Shown: in pieces, positions 3 to 14,875 of the stretch
Layout: the number at the start of each line of letters is the position of its first letter
Numbering within the stretch: the first letter of the stretch is position 1
NCBI RefSeq assembly: GCF_031759225.1
Contig: NZ_CP134494.1
Span: 201,001-265,000, forward strand
Length of the DNA stretch: 64,000 nucleotides
DNA from: Mesobacillus jeotgali
GTDB lineage: Bacteria; Bacillota; Bacilli; Bacillales; Cytobacillaceae
Direction of reading: 5' to 3'
Translations under genes and position numbers: made by a program
The notes under the pieces: generated by a model
Databases searched by the model: none
What the model was told of the DNA's origin: nothing
Seen by the model: the letters and a program-made list of their open reading frames with translations, nothing else

Positions 3-749
3 ATTCAAGATGTACCTAGTGAAGGCAGGTCCCATCGCCCTAAAGGATGGAAAACAAATAGAAAGCATGAACTTCTTTCTGATTTAGAACTTTCCTTTTT
101 TTATTATTTAGAGTGGAGCAATAAAGTAATTGATATAAAAGAGCAGTATCCTCTAGACAGAGATGACACCATTGCAATCGCCTCAGAGAAAAATATCCCA
201 CATCCATTTGAGAATAGTACTCAAACTCCCATAGTAATGACCACTGATTTTTTAGTAACAACTCGTATTGGTAAAGACATTATTCATATAGCTCGATCAA
301 TTAAACCAAGTGAAAAGCAAGAAGACCCAAAAGTTTTAGGAAGGCTCGAAATAGAAAGGCAATTTTGGCAGGATAAAGGAGTTGAGTGGATAGTAGTTGA
401 CGAGAAAGTAATGTCAAAGCAATTTTTCAAAAATATGAAATATATTCACGAATATTATTACCTAACAAATAGTGTTGAGGAAGAAATGGCAACTCATTTT
501 TTAGGTTTCTTAGCCAGTATAGCTATGAAAAAACCAGAAAAAAAGTTAATTGACTGTTGTAATGAATTTGATACGCTTTATAACTTGGATAATGGTTCAG
601 CAATATATTATTGTAGGCACTTATATGCTCGTCAATATCTAGTGACTAACGATATGGAAAAGGCAATACAACCTCACAAAATCTCTTTGGCTGATCTTGA
701 TATTAGAAATGGAGGCTTTGAAAGAAATTATGGAGACTTTATCAGTTAA
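3..749 (+). CDS. tnsA: TnsA-family endonuclease subunit, 5' truncated by the window
   Basis: TnsA makes the 5'-strand cuts at the transposon ends and works with TnsB as a heteromeric transposase. The frame is open from base 3, so 248 residues are visible and the N terminus is missing. The restriction-like catalytic triad can be read: Glu29 in DLELSFFYYLEW, Asp82 in MTTDFLV and Lys101 in ARSIKP (visible numbering), matching Glu63, Asp114 and Lys132 of Escherichia coli TnsA. A second half typical of the TnsA C-terminal TnsC-binding domain follows. The gene overlaps tnsB by about 20 bases, so the two are translationally coupled. The ATG at 237 is internal to the conserved catalytic domain and is not the start. 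Confidence 0.9.
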   Translation: MQDVPSEGRSHRPKGWKTNRKHELLSDLELSFFYYLEWSNKVIDIKEQYPLDRDDTIAIASEKNIPHPFENSTQTPIVMTTDFLVTTRIGKDIIHIARSIKPSEKQEDPKVLGRLEIERQFWQDKGVEWIVVDEKVMSKQFFKNMKYIHEYYYLTNSVEEEMATHFLGFLASIAMKKPEKKLIDCCNEFDTLYNLDNGSAIYYCRHLYARQYLVTNDMEKAIQPHKISLADLDIRNGGFERNYGDFIS

Positions 750-2898
750 TGAGTTAATCGTCGATCTTGATTTAGAAAGGAATTATAGAGTCTTATGGGT
801 GGATTCTGGCAATATAATCGCTTATGTAATAGATATAGAAAAAGATAAAGCACTCCCTTTTATCATGACCATTAAACATATTGAAGAAAAAATATACTTA
901 GGTGAATATACAATTAAAGTAGATCGAGGGTTCATATTAAACAGGAAGCCCACAAAAAAAGATTTGGAGCATAGAGATAAAACCTGGATTTATATAAAGG
1001 ACCTTGTAGACCATAAACCAGGAATTTTTAAGAAAGACCAAAGAAATAAAATTATTGATAAAGTGATGTCTTCCCATACAATTGGTTCTCGTAATACAGT
1101 TTTAAAGAACTTAAGAAAATATTGGCAAAGAGGAATGGACAAAGACAGCCTGTTCCCTAATCATGCTCTCAAAAGGTCAGAAAATAACTATAAGACGAAG
1201 ACTGGAAGACCAAAAAAGAATGGAAAAACAGGCATTGTAATTACACAGGATATCAAAAATCAGTTTAAAAAATCCATTGAAAAATACTACTTAGATAGGA
1301 AAAAGCCTTCACTCAGATTTGCCTTTAACAACATGACATCGGATTATTATTCAAAATATAAGTATTTTGATAAAGAAGGTAATGAAAAAATCAAGCTAGT
1401 AGAAGAAGAAAAAAGACCGACATTTCGGCAATTTCAATATTGGTTTAGAAAAGAGTATTTTAGTGATGATGTTACCAAAGCACGCGAAGGTAAACATATT
1501 TTTGAACAAAATTATAGAGCTATTACTGGTTCATCGACAGCTGAAACGGATGGACCCGGTGATATTTTTCAGATAGATGCAACGCCAAGTAATGCTTATT
1601 TAGTAAGTCGTTTTAATCCCAATTGGATAGTAGGTAGACCGACCACATATTTTATCGTAGATGTAAATACTCACTTAATTACTGGACTGTATGTAGGGTT
1701 AGAAAATGCTTCTTGGAAAGCCATGATGAATGCTATTTTAAATGCTTGTTCAGATAAGGTGGAGTTTTGTAAAAAATATGATATTGATATCACTTCAGAT
1801 ATGTGGCCATCGATGCATTTGCCAAGCAACATTATCGGTGATAGAGGTGAACTGGCAAGTCATGGTGTGGATCATTTGGTTGAGGGTTTAGGCCCTCTTA
1901 TTAGCAACACACCACCCTATCGTCCCGACTGGAAAGGAATCGTAGAGAAGTTATTCGATACTTCTCAAGAGAAAATAAAACCCTTTATACCAGGTTACGT
2001 ACATAAGGATCATGGAGAAAGAGGAGTTAAAGATTATCGTCTAGAAGCAACGTTAACTATAGAAGATTACACGAAAGTATTAATCCATTTTATACTTTTT
2101 TATAACCAAAATTTCTATATGGATGATTATATAAGAACTGAGGAACAGATAGGAGATAATGTCCAGCCTATTCCAATAAAATTATGGGAATGGGGAATAA
2201 AAAATGCTGCTGGTAAATTGCATAAACATAATATCGAAAAAATTAAATTTTATTTATTACCACGAGCTACAGCAACAGTTACAGAAAAAGGTATCAAGTA
2301 TAAAAAAATGCTATATACAACTCCGGTGGCAATAAAAGAGGGTTGGTTTTCAAGGGCAAGGTTAAAAGGAAGTTGGAAAGTGGAGTTTTCTTTCGATCCA
2401 AGAAATATGGACACAATTTATATACACTCAAATGACAAGGACCTATTCATTCCATGTAATTTTGTTGATCATCATAGCAGATACAAAAATAAAACAATTG
2501 AGGAAATTGAACAACTAATAGAATTTGAATCTGATGATAAGAAGAATTTTGAGCATACCCAACTGGAAAATGAAATTAACTTCTATTCAGATATTCAAGG
2601 CATTGTCAAAGCTGCAGAAAAGAATAAAAAAGAACATCTAGACAAATCTCTAAGCAAAGCTGCTAGAACTAAAAATATTAAAGGATACAGAAAGCAGGAG
2701 CAACTGGAGAGAAGCTTTGAAGAGTCTATAAAACCGTCTACCGAAGAGGAGATAGTTAGTTCTACCACCGATAAAGATAATGTAGTTGAGTCTTTCGTTA
2801 ATCAACCTATGGATAATCAAGAATCCGATGGTACTCTTCATTCAAAAGTATCGATAAAGCAATTATTTGCCAAAAGAGGTCGGAAAGAAAATGGATAA
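730..2898 (+). CDS. tnsB: TnsB-family DDE transposase
   Basis: TnsB binds the transposon ends and does 3'-strand cleavage and joining. The protein has about 722 residues, close to the family's 700. The RNase H-fold triad is readable as Asp283 in FQIDATP, Asp371 in IIGDRGE and Glu406 in GIVEKLF, with the Asp and Glu 35 residues apart. A basic DNA-binding part precedes it (for example TKTGRPKKNGKTG), and a charged tail that should contact TnsC follows. The start is uncertain: ATG 730 lies 14 bases after a GGAGG, while TTG 697 and ATG 709 are in frame upstream without a good ribosome site. The last 8 bases overlap tnsC. Confidence 0.92.
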   Translation: METLSVNELIVDLDLERNYRVLWVDSGNIIAYVIDIEKDKALPFIMTIKHIEEKIYLGEYTIKVDRGFILNRKPTKKDLEHRDKTWIYIKDLVDHKPGIFKKDQRNKIIDKVMSSHTIGSRNTVLKNLRKYWQRGMDKDSLFPNHALKRSENNYKTKTGRPKKNGKTGIVITQDIKNQFKKSIEKYYLDRKKPSLRFAFNNMTSDYYSKYKYFDKEGNEKIKLVEEEKRPTFRQFQYWFRKEYFSDDVTKAREGKHIFEQNYRAITGSSTAETDGPGDIFQIDATPSNAYLVSRFNPNWIVGRPTTYFIVDVNTHLITGLYVGLENASWKAMMNAILNACSDKVEFCKKYDIDITSDMWPSMHLPSNIIGDRGELASHGVDHLVEGLGPLISNTPPYRPDWKGIVEKLFDTSQEKIKPFIPGYVHKDHGERGVKDYRLEATLTIEDYTKVLIHFILFYNQNFYMDDYIRTEEQIGDNVQPIPIKLWEWGIKNAAGKLHKHNIEKIKFYLLPRATATVTEKGIKYKKMLYTTPVAIKEGWFSRARLKGSWKVEFSFDPRNMDTIYIHSNDKDLFIPCNFVDHHSRYKNKTIEEIEQLIEFESDDKKNFEHTQLENEINFYSDIQGIVKAAEKNKKEHLDKSLSKAARTKNIKGYRKQEQLERSFEESIKPSTEEEIVSSTTDKDNVVESFVNQPMDNQESDGTLHSKVSIKQLFAKRGRKENG

Positions 2899-4528
2899 AT
2901 TAATTAAGTTGGATAATGGGGACTATGCTTTTACAGCTCAATATAGAGACCAAGAAGTTGTTGATTACAAGGGTAATCCATTAATTGAGGCACTGCCACC
3001 TATTCTGTCTTATGAAGATGCGTTTGACCAACTCAGTTATATTCCTGAATATGAAGATAAAGAAAGAAACCTCTCTGCACATCACAGATATCATTCACTT
3101 CTAAGGCTTACCCGGTTTTATCAACCTATTGAAAAAACTCTTGAAGTGGAAGCAAAGTTTTCAAGACTGATTAGAGGCGGATATGTTTATCGAAATCCTA
3201 ACAGTAGATCCCATGCGGAAACCTTGATGGAGCTACACCGGAGATTAGAGAATAATGAACCTTTAGGTTTGCCCCCTGAGATAAGAAAATCTGCATCCAG
3301 TTTGTGTGTCATTGGCTTCTCGGGCATTGGCAAAACATCTACTATTGAAAGAGTGCTATCACTCTATCCAAAGGTTATTGTACATCAGTATCCTTTAAAC
3401 ATTGTACAGATTCCATGGTTAAAACTTAATTGTCCTAATGATGGCTCACCAAAAACGTTATGCTTAGACTTCTTTTTGAAGTTAGATGAGTTGCTAGGTA
3501 CTAACTATCTCAAACAGTATGGAAACAAACGAGATTCTTTGAGCTTTTTGATTATACGTCTAGGTCAATTAGCAAGAGCACATTGTTTAGGAGTATTAAT
3601 AATTGATGAAATCCAGCATTTATTGACTGCCAAAGATGAGGTATCCTCTAGTATGATGAATTTTTTAGTAACCCTTGTTAACGAAATTGGGATACCACTT
3701 ATGTTGATTGGCACCACTAAGGCTAAAGAGTTGCTTCAGGTTACTTTCAGGCAAGCCAGAAGAGCTGGGGGGCACGGTGAAGTATTATGGGGGCAAATGG
3801 AGAAAGATGATAATTGGGAAGTTTTATTGACCAGCATGTGGGAATATCAATGGACTAAACAGAAAGAGGTGCTTACACAGGAGTGGATTGATGTGTTGCA
3901 TTATGAGAGTCAGGGTATTGTAGATATTGCAGTAAAACTATTTCTACTTGCACAATCGCATGCGATTGAAACAGGAGAGGAAAAAATCACACCTAAGTTA
4001 ATAAACAAGATAAGCAAGAAATATCTATTAATGGTTCAAGATATGCTAACTGCATTAAAAAAGGGTATTCCTGAAGAAATTGCTAAATATGATGATATCA
4101 CACCTTTTGATATTGAAGAATTCATTTTGAGCAGAAAACCTGTAGTAAATATGAGGGAGAGGATAATCACCCAGAAAGAAAAGCAAGCTGAAAAAAGACA
4201 GCAAAAAGAGTTGTCAATTCTTGAAAAAGTTATCTTAACTTTAATTAATTTAGATATTAATGAGAAGTTAGCAGAATCTACGGCGAAAAGGATCATTTTA
4301 GAAAATAAGAACATAAGCCTTCAGGAAGCAGTCCAAAAGTCATTACTAACAATTAATCAACTTACGGAAGCTAAAAAGTCGGCAGAATCTGAAAAGAAAA
4401 ATAAAAGATCAGTGAATATTCTACTCGAGATAGTTGATAATGGTAGAAAAAACAGGAAATCAGCACACGATTCCCTGCTTGAAAGAGGTTTGATATTAGC
4501 ACCTTTTTCAGATACTAAACTATTTTAG
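2891..4528 (+). CDS. tnsC: TnsC-family AAA+ ATPase, transposition regulator
   Basis: TnsC is the ATP-dependent matchmaker that links the target selector (TniQ/TnsD) to the TnsAB transposase. The protein has 545 residues. Walker A reads GFSGIGKT at residues 142-149, and Walker B ends in LIIDE with Asp239-Glu240. ATG 2891 follows an AGGT-containing site inside the end of tnsB and overlaps its stop (ATGGATAA). The C-terminal 100 residues are Lys/Glu-rich and probably helical, where TnsC proteins bind TnsA. tniQ begins 3 bases after the stop, so the four genes form one operon. Confidence 0.92.
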   Translation: MDKLIKLDNGDYAFTAQYRDQEVVDYKGNPLIEALPPILSYEDAFDQLSYIPEYEDKERNLSAHHRYHSLLRLTRFYQPIEKTLEVEAKFSRLIRGGYVYRNPNSRSHAETLMELHRRLENNEPLGLPPEIRKSASSLCVIGFSGIGKTSTIERVLSLYPKVIVHQYPLNIVQIPWLKLNCPNDGSPKTLCLDFFLKLDELLGTNYLKQYGNKRDSLSFLIIRLGQLARAHCLGVLIIDEIQHLLTAKDEVSSSMMNFLVTLVNEIGIPLMLIGTTKAKELLQVTFRQARRAGGHGEVLWGQMEKDDNWEVLLTSMWEYQWTKQKEVLTQEWIDVLHYESQGIVDIAVKLFLLAQSHAIETGEEKITPKLINKISKKYLLMVQDMLTALKKGIPEEIAKYDDITPFDIEEFILSRKPVVNMRERIITQKEKQAEKRQQKELSILEKVILTLINLDINEKLAESTAKRIILENKNISLQEAVQKSLLTINQLTEAKKSAESEKKNKRSVNILLEIVDNGRKNRKSAHDSLLERGLILAPFSDTKLF

Positions 4529-4531
4529 GTG

Positions 4532-6277
4532 ATGAATTTGCTTCGCTGGTTTCCTAGGATTCATGAAGACGAATCGCTTTATAGTATTTTTGCAAGGTAT
4601 TTCATTCAGAGCCCACACCTTAGTATAAGAGAAGCTCTACATGAATTATTTAATGACTCTAGGGCAGTTCTCACACCTGACTTTCCTTCTAACTTAGGTG
4701 TTCTATTTAATCAGTTTTCTTTGTTTAGTAACATAAATTTAGACGAGTTTATATGTAAACATACTCCATTAAATTATTTTACAACATTTATTGGTGAAGA
4801 GCAGTTTGAAAAAGTTTTTAATGAAATTAGAAACCCAAAGAGGAAAAATGTTCAAATGTTAACAGGATTAGTAGCAAGTACAGTAAAAGAAACAAGATTT
4901 TTCAAGTATTGTCCCTTATGCTTTGAACATGATCAAAAGACTTATGGTGAATCTTTTTGGAGGGTTTCTCACCAGCTTCCAGGAGTGCTGATTTGCCAAA
5001 TGCATCACTCAGTATTACATTATAGTTCTGTAAAATATAGATATAGAAATGCGGAGTTACATACTCCTAATGTACATAATTGTAAACCTTCAGAGAAAAG
5101 TATGTGTATTATGAATGAAGATTTTACAAAAGATGAGTTAACTTTACTAATAAAAGTAGCAATTTACAGTAAGCAACTACTTTTGAATAGGGAGAAATAT
5201 AATGATAGTCAGCTTACAAAAAAATATAAGGAGTTCCTGAGAGAAAAGGGATACTTAACTTCTGGTGGAAATGTTAAACAGAGCCACTTATACTCCGCCT
5301 TTGTTTCCTTTTATGGATTGAAAATCTTAAGTGCACTTCAATCAATTCCAACTTCCGAAGAGAATACTTGTTGGCTGAAAAGTATTGCACGAAAACACAA
5401 AAAATCTTTTCATCCTTTGAGACATATCCTTTTTTTAATGTTTTTAGGAAAAACAGTTACAGACCTGTCTACACCTGATGATAATAGTCCATTTGGAAAT
5501 GGTCCTTATCCTTGTCTTAATCCTGCTGCAGTTCACCATAAAGAATTAGTCGTCTCTCAACTGAGTATAAAAAGGTGTACAGATACTGGCTATCCAATTG
5601 GTACTTTTACCTGTAAATGTGGCTTTCAATATACAAGGCTAGGACCAGATAAAAAAGCGGAAGATAAGTACAATTATAGGTATGTTCGTTGTTATGGGGA
5701 AGTCTGGCAAGATAAACTAATTGATTATGTGGATAACAAAAAATATAGCTTTCGAAAGATAGCAAAAATTCTAGAGGTAGATGTTGGCACGGTCATAAAA
5801 TATTACAAAACACCTAAGAAACAAAGTAGTGAGCAAGGAGTAAATGAGATCTCAAAGGAATTATATCGATCAGTTTGGATTAAAACAATGGGTGAAAATC
5901 CTACATGGACTAAAACCCAAATACGAAAATCAAATCCAAAAGAATATGCGTGGCTTTATAGGAATGATAAGGAGTGGCTTAATTGTAACTCTCCAAAGAA
6001 ATTTATAAATCAAAGCCCGAAAAATGCAAGAGTAGATTGGGGTAGTAGAGACTTGGATACTTTATTACTTCTTAAGAAGTTTTTATTAACAATTAATCAT
6101 AAGAGCAGACCGAAAAGAATTACTAAAAGGTATTTAGCACTGGCGATCGATAAGCTTAGTCTAATTGAAAAACATTTAATTAAACTTCCCTTGTCTAAGT
6201 TGTTTATTGAATCTCTTGTTGAGTCCCCTATTGAATATCGTGAAAGGTTGGAAGCGTGGAAAAAAGAAAAAATTTAA
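4532..6277 (+). CDS. tniQ: TniQ/TnsD-family target-site selector (first copy)
   Basis: TniQ/TnsD proteins read a fixed chromosomal attachment site and recruit TnsC. The 581-residue protein opens with a TniQ N terminus (LLRWFPRIHEDESLYSIFAR) and has the family zinc site YCPLC ... LICQMHH near residues 125-165. A long C-terminal part follows, as in TnsD proteins that recognise a specific site. A second cysteine pair (FTCKCGFQY) and a helix-turn-helix-like stretch (YSFRKIAKILEVDVGTVIKY) suggest direct DNA reading. It starts 3 bases after tnsC; GTG 4529 is an alternative start. This is the only intact selector in the element, so it is presumably the one that chose the present site. Confidence 0.88.
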   Translation: MNLLRWFPRIHEDESLYSIFARYFIQSPHLSIREALHELFNDSRAVLTPDFPSNLGVLFNQFSLFSNINLDEFICKHTPLNYFTTFIGEEQFEKVFNEIRNPKRKNVQMLTGLVASTVKETRFFKYCPLCFEHDQKTYGESFWRVSHQLPGVLICQMHHSVLHYSSVKYRYRNAELHTPNVHNCKPSEKSMCIMNEDFTKDELTLLIKVAIYSKQLLLNREKYNDSQLTKKYKEFLREKGYLTSGGNVKQSHLYSAFVSFYGLKILSALQSIPTSEENTCWLKSIARKHKKSFHPLRHILFLMFLGKTVTDLSTPDDNSPFGNGPYPCLNPAAVHHKELVVSQLSIKRCTDTGYPIGTFTCKCGFQYTRLGPDKKAEDKYNYRYVRCYGEVWQDKLIDYVDNKKYSFRKIAKILEVDVGTVIKYYKTPKKQSSEQGVNEISKELYRSVWIKTMGENPTWTKTQIRKSNPKEYAWLYRNDKEWLNCNSPKKFINQSPKNARVDWGSRDLDTLLLLKKFLLTINHKSRPKRITKRYLALAIDKLSLIEKHLIKLPLSKLFIESLVESPIEYRERLEAWKKEKI

Positions 6278-6289
6278 AGTGGTGATAAT

Positions 6290-6460
6290 GTGTTTGCCCA
6301 ATTACCAAAGATTTATAAAGATGAATTGCTATTTAGTATAGTATCAAGATACCATAATTATAGTTTAAATATTAGCTCGAAAAAAACTTTAATGGAACTA
6401 GGTATATTAAAAGCAACCCCCTTAATTCCATACAATTTAAAAAAATTCTTAAAGTGTTAA
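6290..6460 (+). pseudogene. second TniQ gene, 5' fragment cut by the nested element
   Basis: From GTG 6290 the frame reads FAQLPKIYKDELLFSIVSRY, a clear TniQ N terminus, for 55 codons up to Lys in the direct repeat CTTAAAG. It then runs into TGT-TAA, the first bases of the inserted element. The start lies 12 bases after the first tniQ stop, next to GGTGAT. The remainder of the gene resumes at 9740 in the same frame. Joined, the two parts give a 551-residue protein. As it stands only a short peptide can be made. Confidence 0.88.
6448..6454 (+). repeat. left 7-bp direct repeat flanking the nested element
   Basis: CTTAAAG stands immediately before the element's first base and again at 9733-9739 immediately after its last base. 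This is the expected target-site duplication. It is 7 bp as read; the neighbouring bases differ. Confidence 0.85.
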
Positions 6461-6525
6461 TGACGTTCTACAATGTCCAGAACTTGACGATGTTAATTGT
6501 CCTAAAACTGACGGAACTACTGTCC
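6455..6525 (+). repeat. left-end iterated transposase-binding boxes
   Basis: TGACG occurs at 6461, 6485 and 6509, and TGTCC at 6474, 6498 and 6521. This makes three tandem units of about 24 bp. The first unit is the terminal inverted repeat. The spacing is what a multi-site DDE transposase of the Mu/TniA class needs. The binding role is inferred. Confidence 0.75.
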
Positions 6526-6566
6526 AAAATTGAAAGGGAAGCAGTTCACATGCTTCCCAAAAGTTT

Positions 6567-6803
6567 TTACAAATCAACTTGATAGGTCTCATTTTTCTTA
6601 AGATAGAATCTAACGTCATTTCGGCCGGTAAGAATATACCAATCTCTGCCCAGCTCCAGGCGGCAGGAAAGGGTCCGACCATTTCCTAGATGTAAATCAA
6701 ACCATTCACCACATCGCATCTTATAGCCGGAGTTCTCTCCCCAAAACACAACCCAACAATCCAATTCTTCATTATAATTCATCTCTTTCCAGCGGGTTTT
6801 CAT
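6567..6803 (-). CDS. DUF5348-like small protein of the nested element
   Basis: A 78-residue acidic protein rich in Trp and Tyr (for example LDCWVVFWGENSGYKMRCGE, RDWYILTGRNDVRFYLKKN). It resembles what I recall as DUF5348, a small beta-rich family found beside ExeA-type transposition ATPases. Its ATG overlaps the ATPase stop (ATGA) after a GGGGGAA ribosome site, so it is translated with the ATPase. Its role in transposition is unknown. The family assignment comes from memory and was not searched. Confidence 0.7.
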   Translation of the reverse strand: MKTRWKEMNYNEELDCWVVFWGENSGYKMRCGEWFDLHLGNGRTLSCRLELGRDWYILTGRNDVRFYLKKNETYQVDL

Positions 6804-7600
6804 GAAAGTTCCCCCTGGATGACTTGCTTGATCATATGATCATCAATGATCCTTCGGCCATTTTGTGAACCATAGAGAAGACTATGTGTACAGAGCTTAT
6901 TAATGAGCCTTGCGGCACCACCAGAGAAGCGATGAATCTCGTCAAGTGCTCCATCAGAGAATATTGGTTGATCAACACCGGCATATCGAAGGTGCCTAGA
7001 AACATATTCTTCAACCTGGGCACGGTCGAGATGTCCTAGCTGAAACTGGATATCGATTCTTTGGCGTATGGCTGCGTATGATTGGAGTCGAAGCCGATCC
7101 CATAATTCACTTTGACCGACCAGGATAAGCGCCATCGGGCTTTGCGAATCCATTTTGAAGTTCAGTAGGAAACGAACCTCTTCAAGCATTTCCCGGTCCA
7201 GAAGATGAGCTTCATCCACTACCACTACAGGTTGTAGCCCTCGTATGCCTTTCATTAATTCAATCTCACGATGAAGCTGCCGTTTTGCATCTCCTCGATA
7301 AAACTTCGCTTCAGAGCCTAACTGTTCCAAAAGACCTTTGTAAAAATGACGAGGCGTTAACTTAGAGTCGGACAGGTAAAGGATATGGAATTTCCCTTTA
7401 TCCAATTTGTCCACAAACTTACGGATGGTTGTGGTCTTTCCAGTACCACTATCCCCACTCAGAACGGCAAAAAGCTGTCTTTCAGCTGTGTACTTCAGCC
7501 TACCAAGGATTTCTTGCACCATGGAGGAATCATACAATTGATCAGTCGGAAGATCTCTGGCGAAAGGAGTGTTGTCCATTTCATAGAATGCTTCAAACAC
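6800..7600 (-). CDS. ExeA-type AAA ATPase of the nested element
   Basis: A 266-residue AAA ATPase of the TniB/MuB/ExeA group, which should help the transposase capture its target in an ATP-dependent way. Walker A is GDSGTGKT (residues 49-56) and Walker B is VVVVDE (125-130). The arginine-rich sensor region RIDIQFQLGHLDRAQVEEYV follows. GTG 7600 is chosen because AAGGAGG stands 9 bases upstream; the longer frame to 7627 would begin before this site. It overlaps the transposase stop by 8 bases and the DUF5348-like gene by 4. Confidence 0.85.
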   Translation of the reverse strand: MFEAFYEMDNTPFARDLPTDQLYDSSMVQEILGRLKYTAERQLFAVLSGDSGTGKTTTIRKFVDKLDKGKFHILYLSDSKLTPRHFYKGLLEQLGSEAKFYRGDAKRQLHREIELMKGIRGLQPVVVVDEAHLLDREMLEEVRFLLNFKMDSQSPMALILVGQSELWDRLRLQSYAAIRQRIDIQFQLGHLDRAQVEEYVSRHLRYAGVDQPIFSDGALDEIHRFSGGAARLINKLCTHSLLYGSQNGRRIIDDHMIKQVIQGELS

Positions 7601-8948
7601 GGGAATCTTCCTCCTTCCAAACGGCACGGAAGGTCACGGCAGGTTTCTGTTCGGTTAGGCGTTCCTGGTTCTTTCGTTCAGCTGCCTTTAATAGTCTTGA
7701 AGATTCTACACCCTGCACCTGCAGGTGCTCAGGTAATGCAGGACGCTTCCCAGCTCTTTCCCCAATGACAAGTTTCTTGGCTTTCCAAGGAGTATGATCC
7801 TCGAACTCAATGGTAAGCTCCTCGATATTCGCAGGATCATAAACCACCTCAACCTGTCGTCCAATGAAAGCCAGGCCGACCTCATATTTTTGATCCATGA
7901 AACTTATGCATCCTGATTTATCGACTTTCCTTGTTTCACAATGGAGGAATGCATTACTCAAGGTATCAGGATCGATGAACCTAATCGCTTTTTTATCTGA
8001 ACGAAATGCCGTTTCCGGGCTGATTTTCTCCCCAAGTGCAGAATGAGGCTTATTCTGATAACACTCTGTGAGCCACACTTGGAAAAGCTCATTCAGACGA
8101 TCAAGTGTATTGGGCTTTTCGATGACAGCCTCACTAATGAATGAATCTATGATTCTATTGAAGCGTTCAATTTTCCCTTTTGATTCAGCTGAGTACGGCC
8201 GTGTGTAAGTAAGGCGGGTGCCTATTTTTGAGCAGGTACGCGACATCCATTTGGTTCGATATTGCTTTCCATTATCAAAATAAACAGCCTCTGGAACACC
8301 ATACTTCTGGATAGCCTGGCGGAAGGCATCCTCGATGATCCTTGAATCCAAGGTAGGATAGAAAGCTGCGTGAAGCACAAACCTGGTGGCGTCATCGATA
8401 AAGGCGACAAGATACACTTGTTTCTTTATTCCATTCGGACCAATCGGCAAGTAGGGACCATACTTGATATCTGACTGCCAGAGTTGGTTGCGATGTCGCT
8501 TCTGAAATCTTCTGGCAGCTACTCCTGTCTGGGAATAGAGTCGCATATGCCGGGTGCTGTAACCTTTTTCAGCGAGCTTTTCCTGGAGCGTTGATCTTTT
8601 GATCTGCCCTGGTTCAGCCAACCCTTCCCATTCGAGTATCTGTATGATTTGAGCCACGCTCCGGCTCGGCACTTCCTTACGCAGAAGGATTGCCTGTTCC
8701 AATAAATGAGGAGGGATAGCCTCAGACTTTCGAGCACCTTTTCTTCCTTGTGGCTTTAGTCCCCCAAACCCATCTTCCTGAAATTGAGCCAAATATCGCC
8801 TGATGGTTCTTTCTGAAAGACCGCTGGCCTTCGCTATCTGGTCTCTTAATTCCTTTACTTTCCCAGCGTCAAGCCCCTCTGCTAATAAAGGGGATATTAG
8901 CTGAAAACGATGCACTGCCAATTCTTCTGATTTCTTATGATCACTCAT
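7593..8948 (-). CDS. DDE transposase with N-terminal HTH (Mu/IS481-like integrase core)
   Basis: A 451-residue transposase. The N terminus (residues 25-60) is a helix-turn-helix of the kind ASGLSERTIRRYLAQF. A second winged-helix-like part follows to about 140. The integrase core has Asp160 in LWQSDIKYG, Asp225 in VYFDNGKQY and Glu261 in KGKIERFNR, giving the D-35-E spacing. The C-terminal domain (from about 350) resembles the Mu transposase C-terminal beta domain (GRQVEVVYDP). No frameshift or stop is seen, so it looks active. Confidence 0.9.
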   Translation of the reverse strand: MSDHKKSEELAVHRFQLISPLLAEGLDAGKVKELRDQIAKASGLSERTIRRYLAQFQEDGFGGLKPQGRKGARKSEAIPPHLLEQAILLRKEVPSRSVAQIIQILEWEGLAEPGQIKRSTLQEKLAEKGYSTRHMRLYSQTGVAARRFQKRHRNQLWQSDIKYGPYLPIGPNGIKKQVYLVAFIDDATRFVLHAAFYPTLDSRIIEDAFRQAIQKYGVPEAVYFDNGKQYRTKWMSRTCSKIGTRLTYTRPYSAESKGKIERFNRIIDSFISEAVIEKPNTLDRLNELFQVWLTECYQNKPHSALGEKISPETAFRSDKKAIRFIDPDTLSNAFLHCETRKVDKSGCISFMDQKYEVGLAFIGRQVEVVYDPANIEELTIEFEDHTPWKAKKLVIGERAGKRPALPEHLQVQGVESSRLLKAAERKNQERLTEQKPAVTFRAVWKEEDSRV

Positions 8949-8992
8949 GATACACTCTCCTCTCTGTGTCTATCACGAGTGTAAATCAGGTG

Positions 8993-9523
8993 CTATTGGA
9001 CAATGAATGCGGAACGGGTATGTATCCATAAATTAATATTTACGATGGGCCGGACAATTCTTGTCAGCCATCCATTGGCATCTCCTGCCAAGCGTCCTAT
9101 CCTTTGAAGTGCGGTCCCTGAACATTTGGACGTGACATCCTGGGGGATATTTCCCTGGTTGGTCCTGATCATGATGGAATTCAAACAGCCAATCCAATAA
9201 TCCACAAATTGATGAAACCAGCCGTGCCATCTCGAAAGAGTGGAATCATCGGCAGCAACAATATGGGCGGACGGGTTCGTAAGAACGTCTTCGATACATT
9301 CAGCCTCATAGCGTTTATAAGGAATCAATAAATCTGGAAGTTCATGATGGATGGTCTGACAATTGGTGCACTGCAATCTTCGGATGTTATATGTTTTACT
9401 CTGACCTGTATGATCCTTGGCTTTTCGATTCTTTGTACCTCTAACCAACATGTCTTTACCACAGCATGGGGAAGGAATCCTCCCCGCACCCCTAACTAAA
9501 AACTCCAGTATGAGTGTTTTCAA
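8993..9523 (-). CDS. DUF6431-like zinc-finger protein of the nested element
   Basis: A 176-residue protein with a four-cysteine zinc site (SPCCGKD near residue 20, LQCTNCQ near 52). A helical part follows with SAHIVAADDSTLSRWHGWFH, which looks like a helix-turn-helix. This pattern fits DUF6431, which I recall beside DDE transposase/ExeA pairs in Firmicutes. The start is TTG 9523 without a strong ribosome site, so it may be misplaced. Its stop lies 45 bases before the transposase start on the same strand. It may be a DNA-binding cofactor or regulator; no function is established from sequence. Confidence 0.7.
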   Translation of the reverse strand: MKTLILEFLVRGAGRIPSPCCGKDMLVRGTKNRKAKDHTGQSKTYNIRRLQCTNCQTIHHELPDLLIPYKRYEAECIEDVLTNPSAHIVAADDSTLSRWHGWFHQFVDYWIGCLNSIMIRTNQGNIPQDVTSKCSGTALQRIGRLAGDANGWLTRIVRPIVNINLWIHTRSAFIVQ

Positions 9524-9564
9524 TCAGCTGATAATCTGATACAATAACCATATACTTTTTGGTG

Positions 9565-9620
9565 GGACGTCTCCTGTATAACTGTTGGCGCAGTTATACA
9601 TTTATGGGGGACGTCTTTTC
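9565..9620. promoter_or_regulatory. perfect 10-bp hairpin between two GGGACGTCT copies
   Basis: TGTATAACTG at 9575-9584 pairs perfectly with CAGTTATACA at 9591-9600 across a 6-base loop. Copies of GGGACGTCT, each with the palindrome GACGTC, lie on both sides. It sits upstream of the DUF6431-like gene inside the element's right end. It could be an operator, or a terminator that insulates the element from outside transcription. I cannot decide between these. Confidence 0.5.
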
Positions 9621-9661
9621 CTTTCTCCAGAATAAATGTCGAAATGTTTCGAATTATATAC

Positions 9662-9732
9662 GGACATTATAATCGACTAATTCTGGACAGGCAATACCGT
9701 CAACTTTCGGATAATTAATGGCGTCAAAAACA
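9662..9732 (-). repeat. right-end iterated transposase-binding boxes
   Basis: CGTCA occurs at 9722 and 9698, with a degenerate CGACT at 9674. GGACA occurs at 9685 and 9662, with GGATA at 9709. Read on the minus strand this is the same TGACG/TGTCC series at about 24-bp spacing as the left end, in inverted orientation. It ends in ACA at 9732. Confidence 0.75.
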
Positions 9733-9739: not shown

Positions 9740-11230
9740 GATATAAATACATACAATCCGCCAATTTATGAAGACTTTTTGAGAGCTCACACTTTATACT
9801 TTTTCTATTCTAATTTCATTTTAGATGAGGAGAAAGTTGAATTAAATAATTTATTGGAGGGAAATAGAGCTAAAGTAAATCGAAATCTTAATGAGAAGAT
9901 TTGGTCAAAACACCCTGTAAAAAGGCTAAGGTATTGTCCGGAGTGTTTGATAGAAAATACATCTAAATTTGGAGAAGATTATTGGCATTTAAGCCATCAG
10001 ATACCTACGGTCTTTATGTGTCCACAACACCAAACACTTCTAAATGAAAGTTCAATAAGTATAAGTGAATCGGATCTCCAAGTTAATAAATTAAAAGGTA
10101 ATTTCCAAGAAGAAAGTAATCCTAGATTACAAAAGAAAACTATATTCCATTTGAAGAATCTAACTGATGCGAGCTTGTTTCTTAATGAATCAGATTGGAA
10201 TTTGAAATATAACATAAACTTTAAACTGTACTTCCTCTTAATAAATAAAGGGTATGTAACAACTGCTGGGGAAATAAATATTTTAAAATTGGAAAAGGCA
10301 ATTATTAATCATTATGGCATTGAATTTTTAAAGTTGGTTGGATTCAATTTGTTTATAATTAAGAAAATGCAAATTAACCCCCTATTATTTCATATGGAGT
10401 TAAATCCAATAGAGACTCTTTCATTAATACTATTCCTTTCAGGTTCACTAGAAAGGTTTATTGCATATCAGTACAGATTTCCATCATCTAACGAGTCACC
10501 CTTCGAATGTACCAACCCCCATTGTAATGAAACCCAATCATTTACCTTTAATAGAAATTCACGTATTATTAATGGGAAAATTCAGACTTATTATGAATGT
10601 AAAAAATGCAACTTTCTATATTGTACCTTTTTTGAAACAATTAAATGGAGAAGATTAGAAACCAGGATATTGGAATCTAAAGCTTTAACAGTGATTCTGA
10701 GCAGATACAACTATAACAATGATAGCAATTTAGAGCTTGTAGCTAATAAGCTTAATTTCTTTAGCAGTCTTAACCTAGAAAGGTATTTGTTGAACAAGAA
10801 AATTACACCTGTGTCCGACGAAATAAAAAAAGAGAGGAGGATGGAGTGGTTAGAAATAGTAAATTTAAATCTAGGGTTATCTCCAATTGAGTTAAAGCAC
10901 TTATACTTCAGCCTATATTCCTTTTTATATTGCTATGATTTAGAATGGCTGAATCAACAAATTTGTAAATTAAATAAGGTTACCCCATGTGATAATTACA
11001 CTTCTAAAGTCTTAATTAAAAGAGATAGAAAAGTGTTACTCTACCTTAAAGATATTGTTAAAAAAGGTATTCTTTGGGGAAGTACGGATGTTTTCCTCTG
11101 GATAAATCGAGAGATTGAAATACTTGATTTACATGACGAACTTCCGTATTTAAAGAAAACATTTAATTATATTGAAAAACACAGACAATTTTATAGCCAA
11201 ACCCAAAAAGCGTTAACAAAGGTAACTTAA
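9740..11230 (+). pseudogene. second TniQ gene, 3' fragment
   Basis: The frame resumes exactly after the direct repeat as DINTYNPPIYEDFLRAHTLY and runs 496 codons to the stop at 11230. The TniQ zinc site is present (RYCPECLIENTS, then VFMCPQHQTLL), and a second cysteine cluster follows (FECTNPHCNE ... YYECKKCNFLYC). Together with 6290-6454 it codes for 551 residues without any other defect, so the interruption is probably recent. A second selector in a Tn7-like element usually serves another target pathway, such as mobile plasmids; here it should be off. Confidence 0.88.
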
Positions 11231-11342: not shown

Positions 11343-11558
11343 GTGTTAGGTTCAAGTGAGGAAATTTTAAATGCCTTTTTAGAAGCTTTCATACCTATTA
11401 TTAATTTGATAATTGTTCCTGTTTTCATTTGGATCATACTTCCTGGAATAGTAACAAGGATTCTCTTTAAGAAAAAGGAGGCTTATGCAATTGGTGCCTT
11501 CTTAGGAATGATAGGTTTGTTTACTGTTGGGCCATTATCCAATTCGAGTTTTTTATAA
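11343..11558 (+). CDS. small membrane protein, first gene of the cargo operon
   Basis: A 71-residue protein with two hydrophobic segments (about residues 15-37 and 48-65) joined by a basic loop, TRILFKKKEAYA. This suggests a helical hairpin with the loop inside the cell. GTG 11343 is chosen because GGAGG stands 8 bases upstream. It is separated by 33 bases from the next gene on the same strand. I do not recognise a family. In transposon cargo, such a protein next to a putative nuclease could be a membrane effector or anchor, but that is inference only. Confidence 0.65.
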   Translation: MLGSSEEILNAFLEAFIPIINLIIVPVFIWIILPGIVTRILFKKKEAYAIGAFLGMIGLFTVGPLSNSSFL

Positions 11559-11591
11559 GAGTTTACGTGTACTTTAAAAGGAGGATGGAGA

Positions 11592-12119
11592 ATGATGAAA
11601 CAGTTTTTTCATTTAGATAGAAGAGGTATGTTGGCTGAAGGACAAACTCTAAACCTAAAGCCAATAGAAATTACTACAGATTATCATGATATTAAGGAGC
11701 ATGCACATATTCTCTTTCCCGAGGGAGTTAGCATGCATGGTGATTTTTATCTTAATAAAGTTATTCCACAAGATTCTCATTCTGAGTGGTTTTATGAATA
11801 TGTAAGAAGAGCAGGATTTAATCAACGACCGTCGAGATTTCAATCTGTCTTTGCATTCGAAACCTTAGAAGACCTTGAGAAATTTAAAATTGAAAGAGAA
11901 ATAGAAGAATCAATCCCTGTTTTTCTTGTTGAATGTGATAAGTTCTTTCGGGCTGACATGAATTTAATCAGTTACAATCCCTCACCGCTGAGTATGTCCT
12001 GTTTAGCATATAATTATTGGTCAGGAGAGACCAACGAAGATATAAACAAAAGGTTCGGTATAGAACCATTATGGGAAAACTTACTAGTGGGACCAGTACA
12101 CGTATTAGCAAGAATTTGA
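11592..12119 (+). CDS. uncharacterised 175-aa cargo protein, possibly DUF2441/ART-like
   Basis: A 175-residue soluble protein. The opening FFHLDRRGMLAEGQTLNL resembles the start of DUF2441-type proteins and, more loosely, ADP-ribosyltransferase-like folds that begin with a His/Arg strand and a G-x-L turn. Further parts are MHGDFYLNKVIP, SEWFYEYVRRAGF and SRFQSVFAFETLEDLEKF. The last has the Ser-x-Phe-x-Ser-x-Phe-x-Phe look of an ART second strand and may be followed by a Glu-containing third motif. AGGAGG precedes ATG 11592. The fold assignment is weak. No function should be assigned without structure prediction. Confidence 0.6.
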   Translation: MMKQFFHLDRRGMLAEGQTLNLKPIEITTDYHDIKEHAHILFPEGVSMHGDFYLNKVIPQDSHSEWFYEYVRRAGFNQRPSRFQSVFAFETLEDLEKFKIEREIEESIPVFLVECDKFFRADMNLISYNPSPLSMSCLAYNYWSGETNEDINKRFGIEPLWENLLVGPVHVLARI

Positions 12120-12153
12120 ATAAACCGCCAAATAAGTTCTAGGGGGAGTACTA

Positions 12154-13269
12154 ATGATTAAGCAGTCTATTCATGCTGCAGCCAAGAAAATGCAAATTGA
12201 CTTTCAAGAATTAACAGGAAATATTAATCATATGGGAGAAAGAGGAAGTAGTAGAGAAGAAATTTTACTCCGTTATCTAAGAAAGTATATTCCCAATAAA
12301 TATCAGATGAATAATGGAATAATAATTGATGGAACTGGAGAACAAAGCAGACAACAGGATATTATTATTTATGATTCATTTAATAGCCCCGTTTTATTAA
12401 ATATGGAGTCTACAAGAATTGTTCCAATAGAAAGTGTATATTCTGTAATTGAGGTAAAATCCACATTAAATAAAACTGAAATTAGTAAATGTGTTAATAA
12501 TATTACCAGTGTAAGATCCTTAATTAAGAATAGTTTAGGTTCAATAAATTCTCCAACAGCTGGGTTTGTATTTGCTTTTACATCATCTACAACATTGGAA
12601 ACTTTATTAGATAATCTTGTTGAAGCAAATAATCAAGTAGATAAGCATAAACAAATTAGTGCAATATGTGTTTTAGATAAAGGAGTTATTGTTAATATAT
12701 CCAAAAAAGGCTTAAACGACATTATACTATTGCCAAATGAAGATTCCACTCCTGGAATAATTAAAAATACAGCAGAAAACAACTTAATGTTATTTTATCT
12801 CTTACTAATGCAGTATTTAAATCAATCAATAGTCTCTGTACCGGATTTATTGAAGTATGCAAATGCAGGGGAGTTATTAAATATTGACTATATTATACCT
12901 AAAAAGCATCTTCCGTTAGATGGCTATTATCGATTTAACCAAGGAAGAATTGAAATAGATACTGCCTATTCAATAATGAAGGGATCTGATTTACTTGAAA
13001 AAATACAAAGTGGTAAAGCTCGCTCAGAAGAAATAATGTTATATTTTAGTAAACATTTTAAGGAGATTATTTCACTTACTGAAAGTGCATATGGTTCGAG
13101 GCCTGATAATATAAAATTTTATGGGAAAGATTACAACATATCTGATATTGAGCGAGCAATCATTATATTTGATAAATTGAGTATTGGAGAAGAGCTAAAT
13201 AAACAGGATTTAGACTATTATAATTCATTGAGCAAAGATATGTTTGCCCAATATAAGCTTGATAAATAA
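12154..13269 (+). CDS. DUF6602-like protein with a possible PD-(D/E)XK nuclease core
   Basis: A 371-residue protein. Residues 25-110 contain GERGSSREEILLRYLRKYIP, then QQDIIIYD and, after a loop, VYSVIEVKSTLNK. The order Glu, Asp, Glu-x-Lys matches the catalytic core of PD-(D/E)XK nucleases, and the whole front half resembles DUF6602 as I recall it. The C-terminal 200 residues are helical and unassigned. ATG 12154 follows AGGGGGAG. It is the last gene of the three-gene cargo operon and lies just before the transposon end. A defence role is plausible for Tn7-like cargo but not shown. Confidence 0.72.
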   Translation: MIKQSIHAAAKKMQIDFQELTGNINHMGERGSSREEILLRYLRKYIPNKYQMNNGIIIDGTGEQSRQQDIIIYDSFNSPVLLNMESTRIVPIESVYSVIEVKSTLNKTEISKCVNNITSVRSLIKNSLGSINSPTAGFVFAFTSSTTLETLLDNLVEANNQVDKHKQISAICVLDKGVIVNISKKGLNDIILLPNEDSTPGIIKNTAENNLMLFYLLLMQYLNQSIVSVPDLLKYANAGELLNIDYIIPKKHLPLDGYYRFNQGRIEIDTAYSIMKGSDLLEKIQSGKARSEEIMLYFSKHFKEIISLTESAYGSRPDNIKFYGKDYNISDIERAIIIFDKLSIGEELNKQDLDYYNSLSKDMFAQYKLDK

Positions 13270-13287: not shown

Positions 13288-13507
13288 TTATTTAAGTGTA
13301 TTGACATGGTAGAAAAACAAGAATTAAGTAATCGCATAATGTAGTATCTGGTGTTTTGACTTATTTGTTTACGTCATATTAAGTTGTCGCTATTTATGAC
13401 TATCCAAAAAAGTTAAGTCAGCTTTAAGTTGCACCTGGAACTATTTTTAATTAGGTATATTAAGGATTTAAGAAAGATTTTCTTCACTATTAAGTTGTCT
13501 GTAAACA
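13288..13507 (+). repeat. transposon end with dispersed TnsB-type boxes
   Basis: TTAAGTTG occurs at 13379, 13424 and 13490. Weaker TTAAGT variants occur at about 13292, 13323 and 13413. The last box leads into GTCTGTAAACA, whose reverse complement begins TGTTTACAGACAACTTAA, in the style of Tn7 ends. There is no coding frame in the interval. The outer border at 13507 is inferred from the terminal ACA. Confidence 0.7.
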
Positions 13508-13542
13508 CCAGTCAGCATTGATTTGCTGGCTGGGTTTTTATT
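13508..13542 (+). terminator. terminator immediately outside the transposon end
   Basis: CCAGTCAGCA pairs with TGCTGGCTGG across a short loop and is followed by GTTTTTATTT. No plus-strand chromosomal gene precedes it in the window. The simplest reading is that it belonged to the gene downstream of which the transposon inserted. Confidence 0.75.
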
Positions 13543-13569
13543 TAGTATCATTCCAAGATGAGTAAAATG

Positions 13570-13875
13570 TTCTATAAGCCCAATAAGGGATGAGAATTGC
13601 AAAAAGGTCACATAGAAAAATTCTATAAGCCCAAAACGAGGTAGGAGTCCTCAAAAGGTCACATAGAAAAATTCTATAAGCCCAAAACGAGTTGAGAGTC
13701 TCCAAAAGGTCGCATAGAAAAGTTCTATAAGCCCAAAACGAGGTAGGAGTCCTCAAAAGGTCATATAGAAAAGTTCTATAAGCCCAAAACGAGGTAGGAG
13801 TTCTCAAAAGGTCACATAGAAAAATTTTATAAGCCCAAAACGAGGCAGGAGTCCTCAAAAGGTCATATAGAAAAA
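13570..13875. repeat. tandem array, six 51-bp units
   Basis: Six contiguous units begin at 13570, 13621, 13672, 13723, 13774 and 13825, with no spacers. Each unit has an outer inverted pair (TTCTAT ... ATAGAA), and most have an inner pair (GAGG ... CCTC), so each can fold as a nested hairpin. As 51 is divisible by 3, a minus-strand frame stays open as a 17-residue repeat. No start signal or typical composition supports a protein. Confidence 0.85.
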
Positions 13876-13884
13876 TTCTAAAAA

Positions 13885-14805
13885 TTACTTATTACTATAA
13901 TCGAAATACTGATGTCTTTTTGTACCGATTACTTTTAAATTATCAGTCAAAATATGCCTTATAACCTTTCTGGATAATGTACCATTGCTCCATTCATAAA
14001 TCAAAGTTGTGGTGATCTTCTTATCAGGAAATAGTAAATTAATTTCTTCAATATTCCGCAGTACATTTGTCTCGATCTTTTCTCGTGTGCCACAATAGCT
14101 GCACACAAATTCCCTTTTCACAATCCGATCCACAAACGAATGACACTCTCCACACACAATCCCTTTCTTCAACTGTTCATACTTATACTTTGGCACTCGT
14201 TTATAGGGGTTATCCACTGTATGCAACACAAGCAGCTTGTCGGCAATCTTCTGATGGAGATTATTCAGTGTGGATTGTCTTTTATTCAATTTTTTCATAA
14301 AGCGGTTGAGTTGGCTGGGTAAGATGATAGGTGCATTCTTGGGGGCGGCCTGGTACAGGGTGAACTCGGGGTTGATGAATATGACATAGGATTCAATCTC
14401 AAGGTGAAAGCCCAGGCTGGAAAGTAGTTGGCGAAACAGAGAGGTGCTACGCTTTAGTTGGAGCAGGGGGTCTTTGATTTCTTCGCCATGGATTAATTTG
14501 AGCCGTTCGTTTTCATAGTAGTAATCACCTTCGTAATCTTTAACTTCGAATAGAAAAAGTTTATTCTGCGTAATGACACTGGAATCAATCTGAAACGTGG
14601 TGCTGCTTGACTCTAGGAGAAGGTCGTTCAACGTCAGGTTTTGGATCTCAAGGCTTTTCATCCAAATGTCGTATTGGACTTCGCCTTTGTAGCCTTTCCT
14701 CAGGCTATAGTGTCTTTGTTTTTCCTTTTCCGTAAAAATCATTCGTGGTTCCAGGAGGTTCATAATTTTTAATTCGTCTGGTTCGCTGCGTTGTTTTAGT
14801 ATCAT
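13885..14805 (-). CDS. NERD domain protein with C-terminal zinc ribbon
   Basis: A 306-residue protein. The NERD (nuclease-related) domain lies at about residues 35-150, with KGYKGEVQYD, DSSVITQNKLFLFEVKDYEGD (Asp then Glu-x-Lys, the restriction-like core) and later LLQLKRSTSLFRQLL. A zinc ribbon follows (VCGECHSF ... CSYCGTREK), then a helix-turn-helix-like tail. ATG 14805 is preferred because AAAGGA stands 8 bases upstream. Such proteins are common in Bacillaceae chromosomes and have no proven role. It is a single gene ending next to the 51-bp array. Confidence 0.8.
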   Translation of the reverse strand: MILKQRSEPDELKIMNLLEPRMIFTEKEKQRHYSLRKGYKGEVQYDIWMKSLEIQNLTLNDLLLESSSTTFQIDSSVITQNKLFLFEVKDYEGDYYYENERLKLIHGEEIKDPLLQLKRSTSLFRQLLSSLGFHLEIESYVIFINPEFTLYQAAPKNAPIILPSQLNRFMKKLNKRQSTLNNLHQKIADKLLVLHTVDNPYKRVPKYKYEQLKKGIVCGECHSFVDRIVKREFVCSYCGTREKIETNVLRNIEEINLLFPDKKITTTLIYEWSNGTLSRKVIRHILTDNLKVIGTKRHQYFDYSNK

Positions 14806-14875
14806 AGTCCACATCCTTTCAACTTATATTCTGATGATAAAAAAGCCAAATATCCAGTGAACATTTTAAGGCAAA

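Follow-up and report, generated by a model that had tools for sequence, protein, structure and literature searches.

NucC is a well-known effector nuclease that is switched by cyclic triadenylate (cA3); trimer-to-hexamer assembly upon ligand binding and double-strand cutting characterise this cA3-dependent type. As an effector of the cyclic-oligonucleotide-based antiphage signalling system (CBASS) and of type III clustered regularly interspaced short palindromic repeat (CRISPR) systems, represented by the structures PDB 6p7o/6p7p, 6q1h, 6uxf and 7zgv, it is the closest known system to the gene analysed here, the third of three consecutive genes in a Tn7-like transposon of Mesobacillus jeotgali. 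A standalone nucC adjoining a nucC-cas10 gene is mentioned for Virgibacillus (PMC11229360). The window, that is, the whole stretch of 64,000 nucleotides that was analysed (G000:C1:201001-265000), belongs to a single-contig genome of 4.63 Mb, and gene 3 (12154..13269, plus strand) encodes a NucC-type (DUF6602) PD-(D/E)xK nuclease of 371 aa with a C-terminal extension. Judged from sequence comparison and a predicted structure, gene 3 is on balance probably a one-gene, cyclase-independent NucC nuclease carried as transposon cargo and perhaps triggered through its C-terminal domain.

The gene 3 protein is a member of DUF6602 (PF20247), an uncharacterised family that was named in no paper turned up by a literature search; its score is far over the Pfam cut-off (E 3.2e-31), and the domain spans residues 22-123 only. 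The PADLOC models of NucC match the protein strongly, and its predicted structure has the NucC fold, in which D69, E100 and K102 align with the NucC catalytic residues and the Asp and Glu-x-Lys elements are in register. The catalytic D and K are kept in all 48 aligned sequences and the E in 47; in a separate alignment of 32 proteins, L114 is without the catalytic Glu. These data bear out the first-pass annotation, which had described a nuclease-like third protein with an Asp...Glu-x-Lys core like that of DUF6602, but its term "undescribed" does not hold for gene 3, which both the PADLOC models and the structure recognise as NucC-type, so that the system is not wholly undescribed. Homology to NucC is almost certain, and a housekeeping role was ruled out by fold and families. 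The fold match to solved NucC stops near residue 241, and the match list covers mainly residues 1-236; the NucC-like core with the catalytic D69, E100 and K102 was delimited as residues 1-243 (12154..12882, plus strand), and residues 246-371 (12889..13266, plus strand) form the extension past the part aligned with solved NucC. Long relatives with 70-81% identity are found in Bacillus, Priestia and Sutcliffiella, and relatives of ~370 aa are named from these three genera, Paenibacillus and clostridia. A decayed copy of the long NucC-type gene remains in L034 (G006:C486), its matched stretch interrupted by eight in-frame stops.

The PADLOC result is a naming trap, in that the NucC models score a DUF6602 protein strongly while no other CBASS part was found around the gene. 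Cyclases were searched for by unfiltered phmmer among open reading frames (ORFs) of at least 100 aa, with cGAS/DncV-like nucleotidyltransferase (CD-NTase), Cas10-type and other SMODS-locus proteins as queries. This search recovered all six cyclase loci and found no cyclase in 34 NucC-type loci or in L002, and none in the locus of gene 3 itself (window plus L002). In the window genome, SMODS gave no match at E<=1, and the matches to the Cas10 palm model are all sub-threshold. The residues of Escherichia coli NucC that contact cA3 are reportedly R53, Y81 and T226, according to work on NucC in 2020; a literature search for pocket residue names found no paper. At their equivalents the window protein has K49 in place of R and N77 in place of Y, and it has no GTVP, so that it does not show the cA3 contacts of CBASS- or CRISPR-type NucC. 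In a 32-protein alignment, all five CD-NTase-linked proteins (L109, L115, L116, L111 and L112) carry R, QY[ST]P and GTVP, whereas among 26 others, the window protein included, R occurs in three, Y in one and GTVP in none. R and Y together are thus present in 5/5 CD-NTase-linked proteins versus 1/26 others (Fisher p 3.5e-5), a value that was given no weight as proof, the five being a single clade and the sample non-random. Across the 48 aligned sequences, 43 have K and five have R at position 49, and none has Y at position 77. Given that no cyclase turned up nearby and that the ligand-holding residues are replaced, gene 3 most likely does not use the cA3 signal of CBASS or type III CRISPR.

The conservation of gene 3 differs along its length. 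In the nine nearest aligned rows, both core halves share 79-92% identity with the window protein, against 48-63% for the extension. Codons were compared over residues 1-125, 126-243 and 246-371; in this order, nonsynonymous divergence (dN) between the window gene and its relative in L031 is 0.058, 0.066 and 0.291, with synonymous divergence (dS) of 1.13, 0.83 and 0.77, and between the window gene and L022 it is 0.084, 0.072 and 0.344, with dS of 1.19, 0.95 and 0.97. The corresponding dN values are 0.027, 0.072 and 0.174 for L031 versus L022, and 0.019, 0.065 and 0.070 for the Paenibacillus pair L004 and L003, in which the contrast is with the first segment only. Relative to these two nearest fetched relatives, L031 and L022, gene 3 is under purifying selection (core dN 0.06-0.08, dS 0.8-1.2). 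Gene 3 would most likely act alone, as a single-gene anti-phage effector: its nuclease core would be held off until infection is detected, the infection might be sensed by the faster-evolving C-terminal domain or by a partner that it meets, and the released core would then cut DNA, as NucC does. The combination of a conserved core and a faster C-terminal part makes the question of the trigger testable with one gene in a single laboratory strain.

Several observations weigh against a cyclase-independent gene 3. The Cas10-linked L037 retains QYTP, with K instead of R and without GTVP, and L114 carries both R and Y with no cyclase adjoining. In a tree built on 223 core columns and rooted at the midpoint, the five CD-NTase-linked proteins group together as a single clade (support 0.999), and the pocket contrast therefore counts as one evolutionary event; this clade is placed next to L108, with no cyclase adjoining (0.89), and the window protein falls in a separate clade (0.914) together with nine further long relatives. 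With a midpoint root the contrast may be read in either direction, as signalling gained in the CBASS branch or lost elsewhere. SMODS queries from L079, L098 and L099 missed the NucC-linked cyclases, so other cyclase clades could be missed as well; the NucC-linked cyclase of L112 is below the SMODS cut-off, several loci of gene 3 relatives are cut near the gene by contig ends, and a GGDEF gene lies near the NucC-type gene of L107 and a MASE1 gene near that of L113. In whole-genome scans, in which many genomes are metagenome-assembled, SMODS matches at E<=0.001 occur in three of 13 genomes with long relatives (L003-L016 minus L012), two of them over the cut-off, and Cas10 palm matches occur in four of 14, of which the two over the cut-off are a Cas10-type protein of Ruminococcus albus 8 and a GGDEF-EAL protein; none of these matches is within a fetched NucC locus. 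At the same threshold, SMODS is matched in one of eight family genomes. Finally, a fast extension can reflect relaxed constraint, with dN still below dS, and in L004/L003 the extension barely differs from the second core half (0.070 vs 0.065).

Some of these points would fit a different reading, in which gene 3 encodes a second-messenger effector of the ordinary kind, whose cyclic oligonucleotide is made by a host cyclase elsewhere and bound in a remodelled pocket. The cyclases elsewhere in some host genomes and the QYTP of L037 beside its Cas10-type gene favour it, as does the core half after the catalytic motif (126-243), whose conservation among near relatives equals that of the catalytic half. 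This reading is nevertheless unlikely in view of the replaced pocket residues, the 34 loci in which the search found no cyclase and a window genome with neither a SMODS match at E<=1 nor a Cas10 match over the cut-off. Separately, in L111 (3143-4648) and L112 (3204-4681) no other gene separates a short (~250 aa) nucleotidyltransferase from a NucC-type nuclease, and the 4-kb flanks hold no annotated Cap6 or Cap7; these pairs are possible minimal CBASS.

The neighbours of gene 3 relatives were tallied from 76 proteins at 18 loci, namely 75 of 88 preselected proteins and one added L032 enzyme (three of the 13 dropped are near-copies in L014), with 25 of 249 families among the matches listed and no background control. 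In this tally, a defence or defence-like neighbour could be named at nine of the 18 loci: type III restriction in L013, L014 (from the near-copy layout) and L016, a type I/IIG enzyme in L032, defence-associated reverse transcriptase (DRT) UG31 (1.7e-119) and an OLD/Gabija-like protein in L031, PD-Lambda-3_A (1e-28) in L004, Abi_2 in L011, a YhcG-type nuclease in L009 and a HEPN protein in L003. In L031 (5352-10456), a 77% relative of gene 3 follows the DRT UG31 gene and an OLD-like AAA/TOPRIM gene. On plasmids, an Abi-family gene and a SEC-C gene flank the NucC-type gene in Acinetobacter, and in Acetobacter the NucC-type gene comes immediately 3′ of a type I R-subunit gene. The upstream genes of L003 and L004 were ruled out as a shared NucC partner, being mutually dissimilar.

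Such neighbours raise the possibility that gene 3 is a restriction-system companion, a nuclease kept as a suicidal back-up and set free once restriction has failed. Relatives are found directly 3′ of type III res genes in L013 and L014 (32 bases) and, in L114, directly 3′ of a type I R-subunit gene (44 bases), with type III genes near the L016 relative and the type I/IIG enzyme near that of L032; however, L114 is the protein without the catalytic Glu, no restriction gene could be recognised among the neighbouring ORFs inspected in the window, L022 and L031, and the neighbour counts carry no background rate. A role of this kind is improbable for gene 3, and the one-gene nuclease described above is preferred.

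Gene 3 is preceded on the plus strand by gene 1 (11343..11558), which encodes a membrane protein of 71 aa from a GTG start at 11343 behind the ribosome-binding site GGAGGTGA, and by gene 2 (11592..12119), which encodes a DUF2441-type protein of 175 aa with the fold of PDB 2aua and a match to phrog_5663. An ORF check agreed with the earlier reading of three plus-strand ORFs of 71, 175 and 371 aa with gaps of 33 and 34 bases, and no plus-strand terminator-like site was found between them. The proposal of the first-pass annotation that the three genes form one system, together with the survey of co-occurrence outside the transposon that it called for, fared differently. Homologues were found for all three genes alike, and these, with the purifying selection on gene 3, indicate that the three ORFs did not arise by chance. 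Relatives of gene 1 or 2 were present in none of 28 loci of gene 3 relatives (558 ORFs), and relatives of gene 1 or 3 in none of 13 loci of gene 2 relatives (14 were searched, and L050 gave no gene 2 ORF), the flanks of these loci being variable and some of the loci cut by contig ends. Among 193 family genomes, gene 3 is matched in nine (several partial, one decayed), gene 2 in two and gene 1 clearly in three, and the window genome alone combines clear relatives of at least two of the genes; G066 has a gene 3 match and a weak gene 1 match (E 9.9e-4) within a 453-aa ORF. The trio was rejected as one system on this co-occurrence, and very probably it is not one; the three genes look like separately acquired mobile-element cargo that at most shares a transcript. 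A joint system, in which the second protein, being ADP-ribosyltransferase-like, would modify the nuclease or some other target while the membrane protein served as anchor or sensor, would be suggested by the shared strand, the short gaps and the lack of a terminator between. It would also be suggested by a prophage-like region of G009, the one other family genome with gene 2, where 2 bases separate the DUF2441 gene from a membrane-protein gene in front of it. It has little likelihood, since the membrane protein of G009 is unlike gene 1 (best BLASTP E 0.17), gene 1 occurs in two congeners where the searches found neither gene 2 nor gene 3, and no pairing was seen in the 28 and 13 loci.

Taken individually, gene 1 is a separately distributed small protein with hydrophobic stretches at about residues 7-43 and 47-65. 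Its clear relatives within the 193 family genomes are in two congeners only (59% and 56%), each directly 3′ of a gene of 75 or 73 aa that appears by eye to encode an XRE-type regulator. At E<=0.05 there are 26 rows from 24 of the 193 genomes, 16 of them inside ORFs of 444-484 aa; the matching ORFs of L063 and L069 are presumably branched-chain amino-acid carriers. A fragment of a large transporter was considered for gene 1 and set aside, the resemblance probably being one of shared membrane composition. A match in G013 (E 1.6e-9, 32%) has two internal stops and no gene 1 ORF.

Gene 2 scores below the Pfam cut-off for DUF2441 (PF10386), a family of the ADP-ribosyltransferase clan represented by BC2332 (PDB 2aua): its E is 0.0023 and its 18.4 bits compare with a cut-off of 25. 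A precomputed DUF2441 domain is present on all 23 listed database rows, namely the window protein and its 22 relatives, and D9, R10, H49, Y53, E69, R72 and PSRFQS 80-85 are invariant or near-invariant in them. The gene 2 model (predicted local distance difference test 93.6) has the fold of 2aua, the solved DUF2441 protein, as its best match, followed by weak matches to ADP-ribosyltransferases. The start of the protein had been read as possibly ART/DUF2441-like; the fold agrees with the DUF2441 part of this reading, and the protein is probably ADP-ribosyltransferase-like, while the Pfam score remains sub-threshold. Gene 2 also matches the phage family phrog_5663 (3.1e-37), and at several loci its relatives appear by eye to lie in prophage- or phage-like regions; it might be a phage-borne modifier or toxin-like protein.

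The Tn7-like element was delimited as G000:C1:193188 to 214507 (21,320 bp), with ends TGTTTAC.../...GTAAACA and a 5-bp target duplication, CCAGT, on both sides. Its left end (G000:C1:193188) is 5′ of the window, and its right end (13486..13507, with ...GTAAACA at 13507 and an arbitrary inner limit) is 238 bases past the gene 3 stop, which places the three genes exactly where they had been placed, between the transposition genes and the transposon end. Pfam matches identify, all on the plus strand, tnsA (237..749 in the window; the full ORF begins earlier, at L002:15811), a tnsB-type transposase (697..2898), a tnsC-type AAA ATPase (2867..4528) and a tnsD (TniQ) target selector (4529..6277), which fits insertion at the glmS site. 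TnsA, TnsB, TnsC and TnsD/TniQ, the 5-bp duplication and the glmS terminator as target, downstream of glmS, are features of Tn7-like transposons at attTn7; here, unlike in those, a second TniQ/TnsD-type gene (3′ part 9779..11230, plus strand) is split by the insertion, at ~6460-9720, of an element carrying TniA-, TniB- and DUF6431-type genes, so that one target-selector gene is interrupted. When joined, the flanks form the hairpin CCAGTCAGCA-TTGATT-TGCTGGCTGG with T's behind it, which is read as the glmS terminator and is the insertion point. The insertion parted glmS from its own terminator, whose remainder, with the CCAGT duplication at 13508-13512, occupies 13508..13533 (plus strand), directly downstream of gene 3, and the displaced terminator could end the transcript of the nuclease gene. 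A direct repeat of 51-bp period (13514-13921) and a gene for a NERD-domain nuclease-related protein (13885-14814, minus strand) lie just beyond the element.

On its opposite, glmS side, 5′ of the window and outside the trio, the element carries a Lamassu-type set, LmuA-LmuC-LmuB (L002:8823-13371; G000:C1:193823-198371), with scores of 4.2e-34 for LmuA, 5.1e-17 for LmuC and 1.4e-73 for LmuB, and additionally a major facilitator superfamily transporter and an ArsR-type gene. The Pfam matches, the element ends and this set confirm that the trio is cargo of a Tn7-like element with defence-type content; a literature search on Tn7-like elements with defence cargo at glmS in Bacillus found nothing. 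The nearest relative element, in G032 (TnsB identity 70-72%), is near glmS with different genes between glmS and tnsA, and from this comparison and the more distant G017 the cargo positions look like interchangeable slots.

Compared with the solved NucC chains of ~240 aa, gene 3 thus has a further 126 C-terminal residues. Relatives that keep the catalytic core without a nearby cyclase or the ligand-contact residues would represent a second control mode of the same nuclease. In this sample the wider family mostly lacks an adjoining cyclase, and NucC linked to a CD-NTase looks like a single specialised branch within it. A tentative generalisation, plausible but held with less confidence than the reading of gene 3 itself, is that most NucC/DUF6602 members would be immune nucleases that work as single genes without a cyclase, a variable C-terminal domain directly sensing infection and unlocking the conserved core, with the cA3-switched NucC of CBASS as a specialised second-messenger branch.
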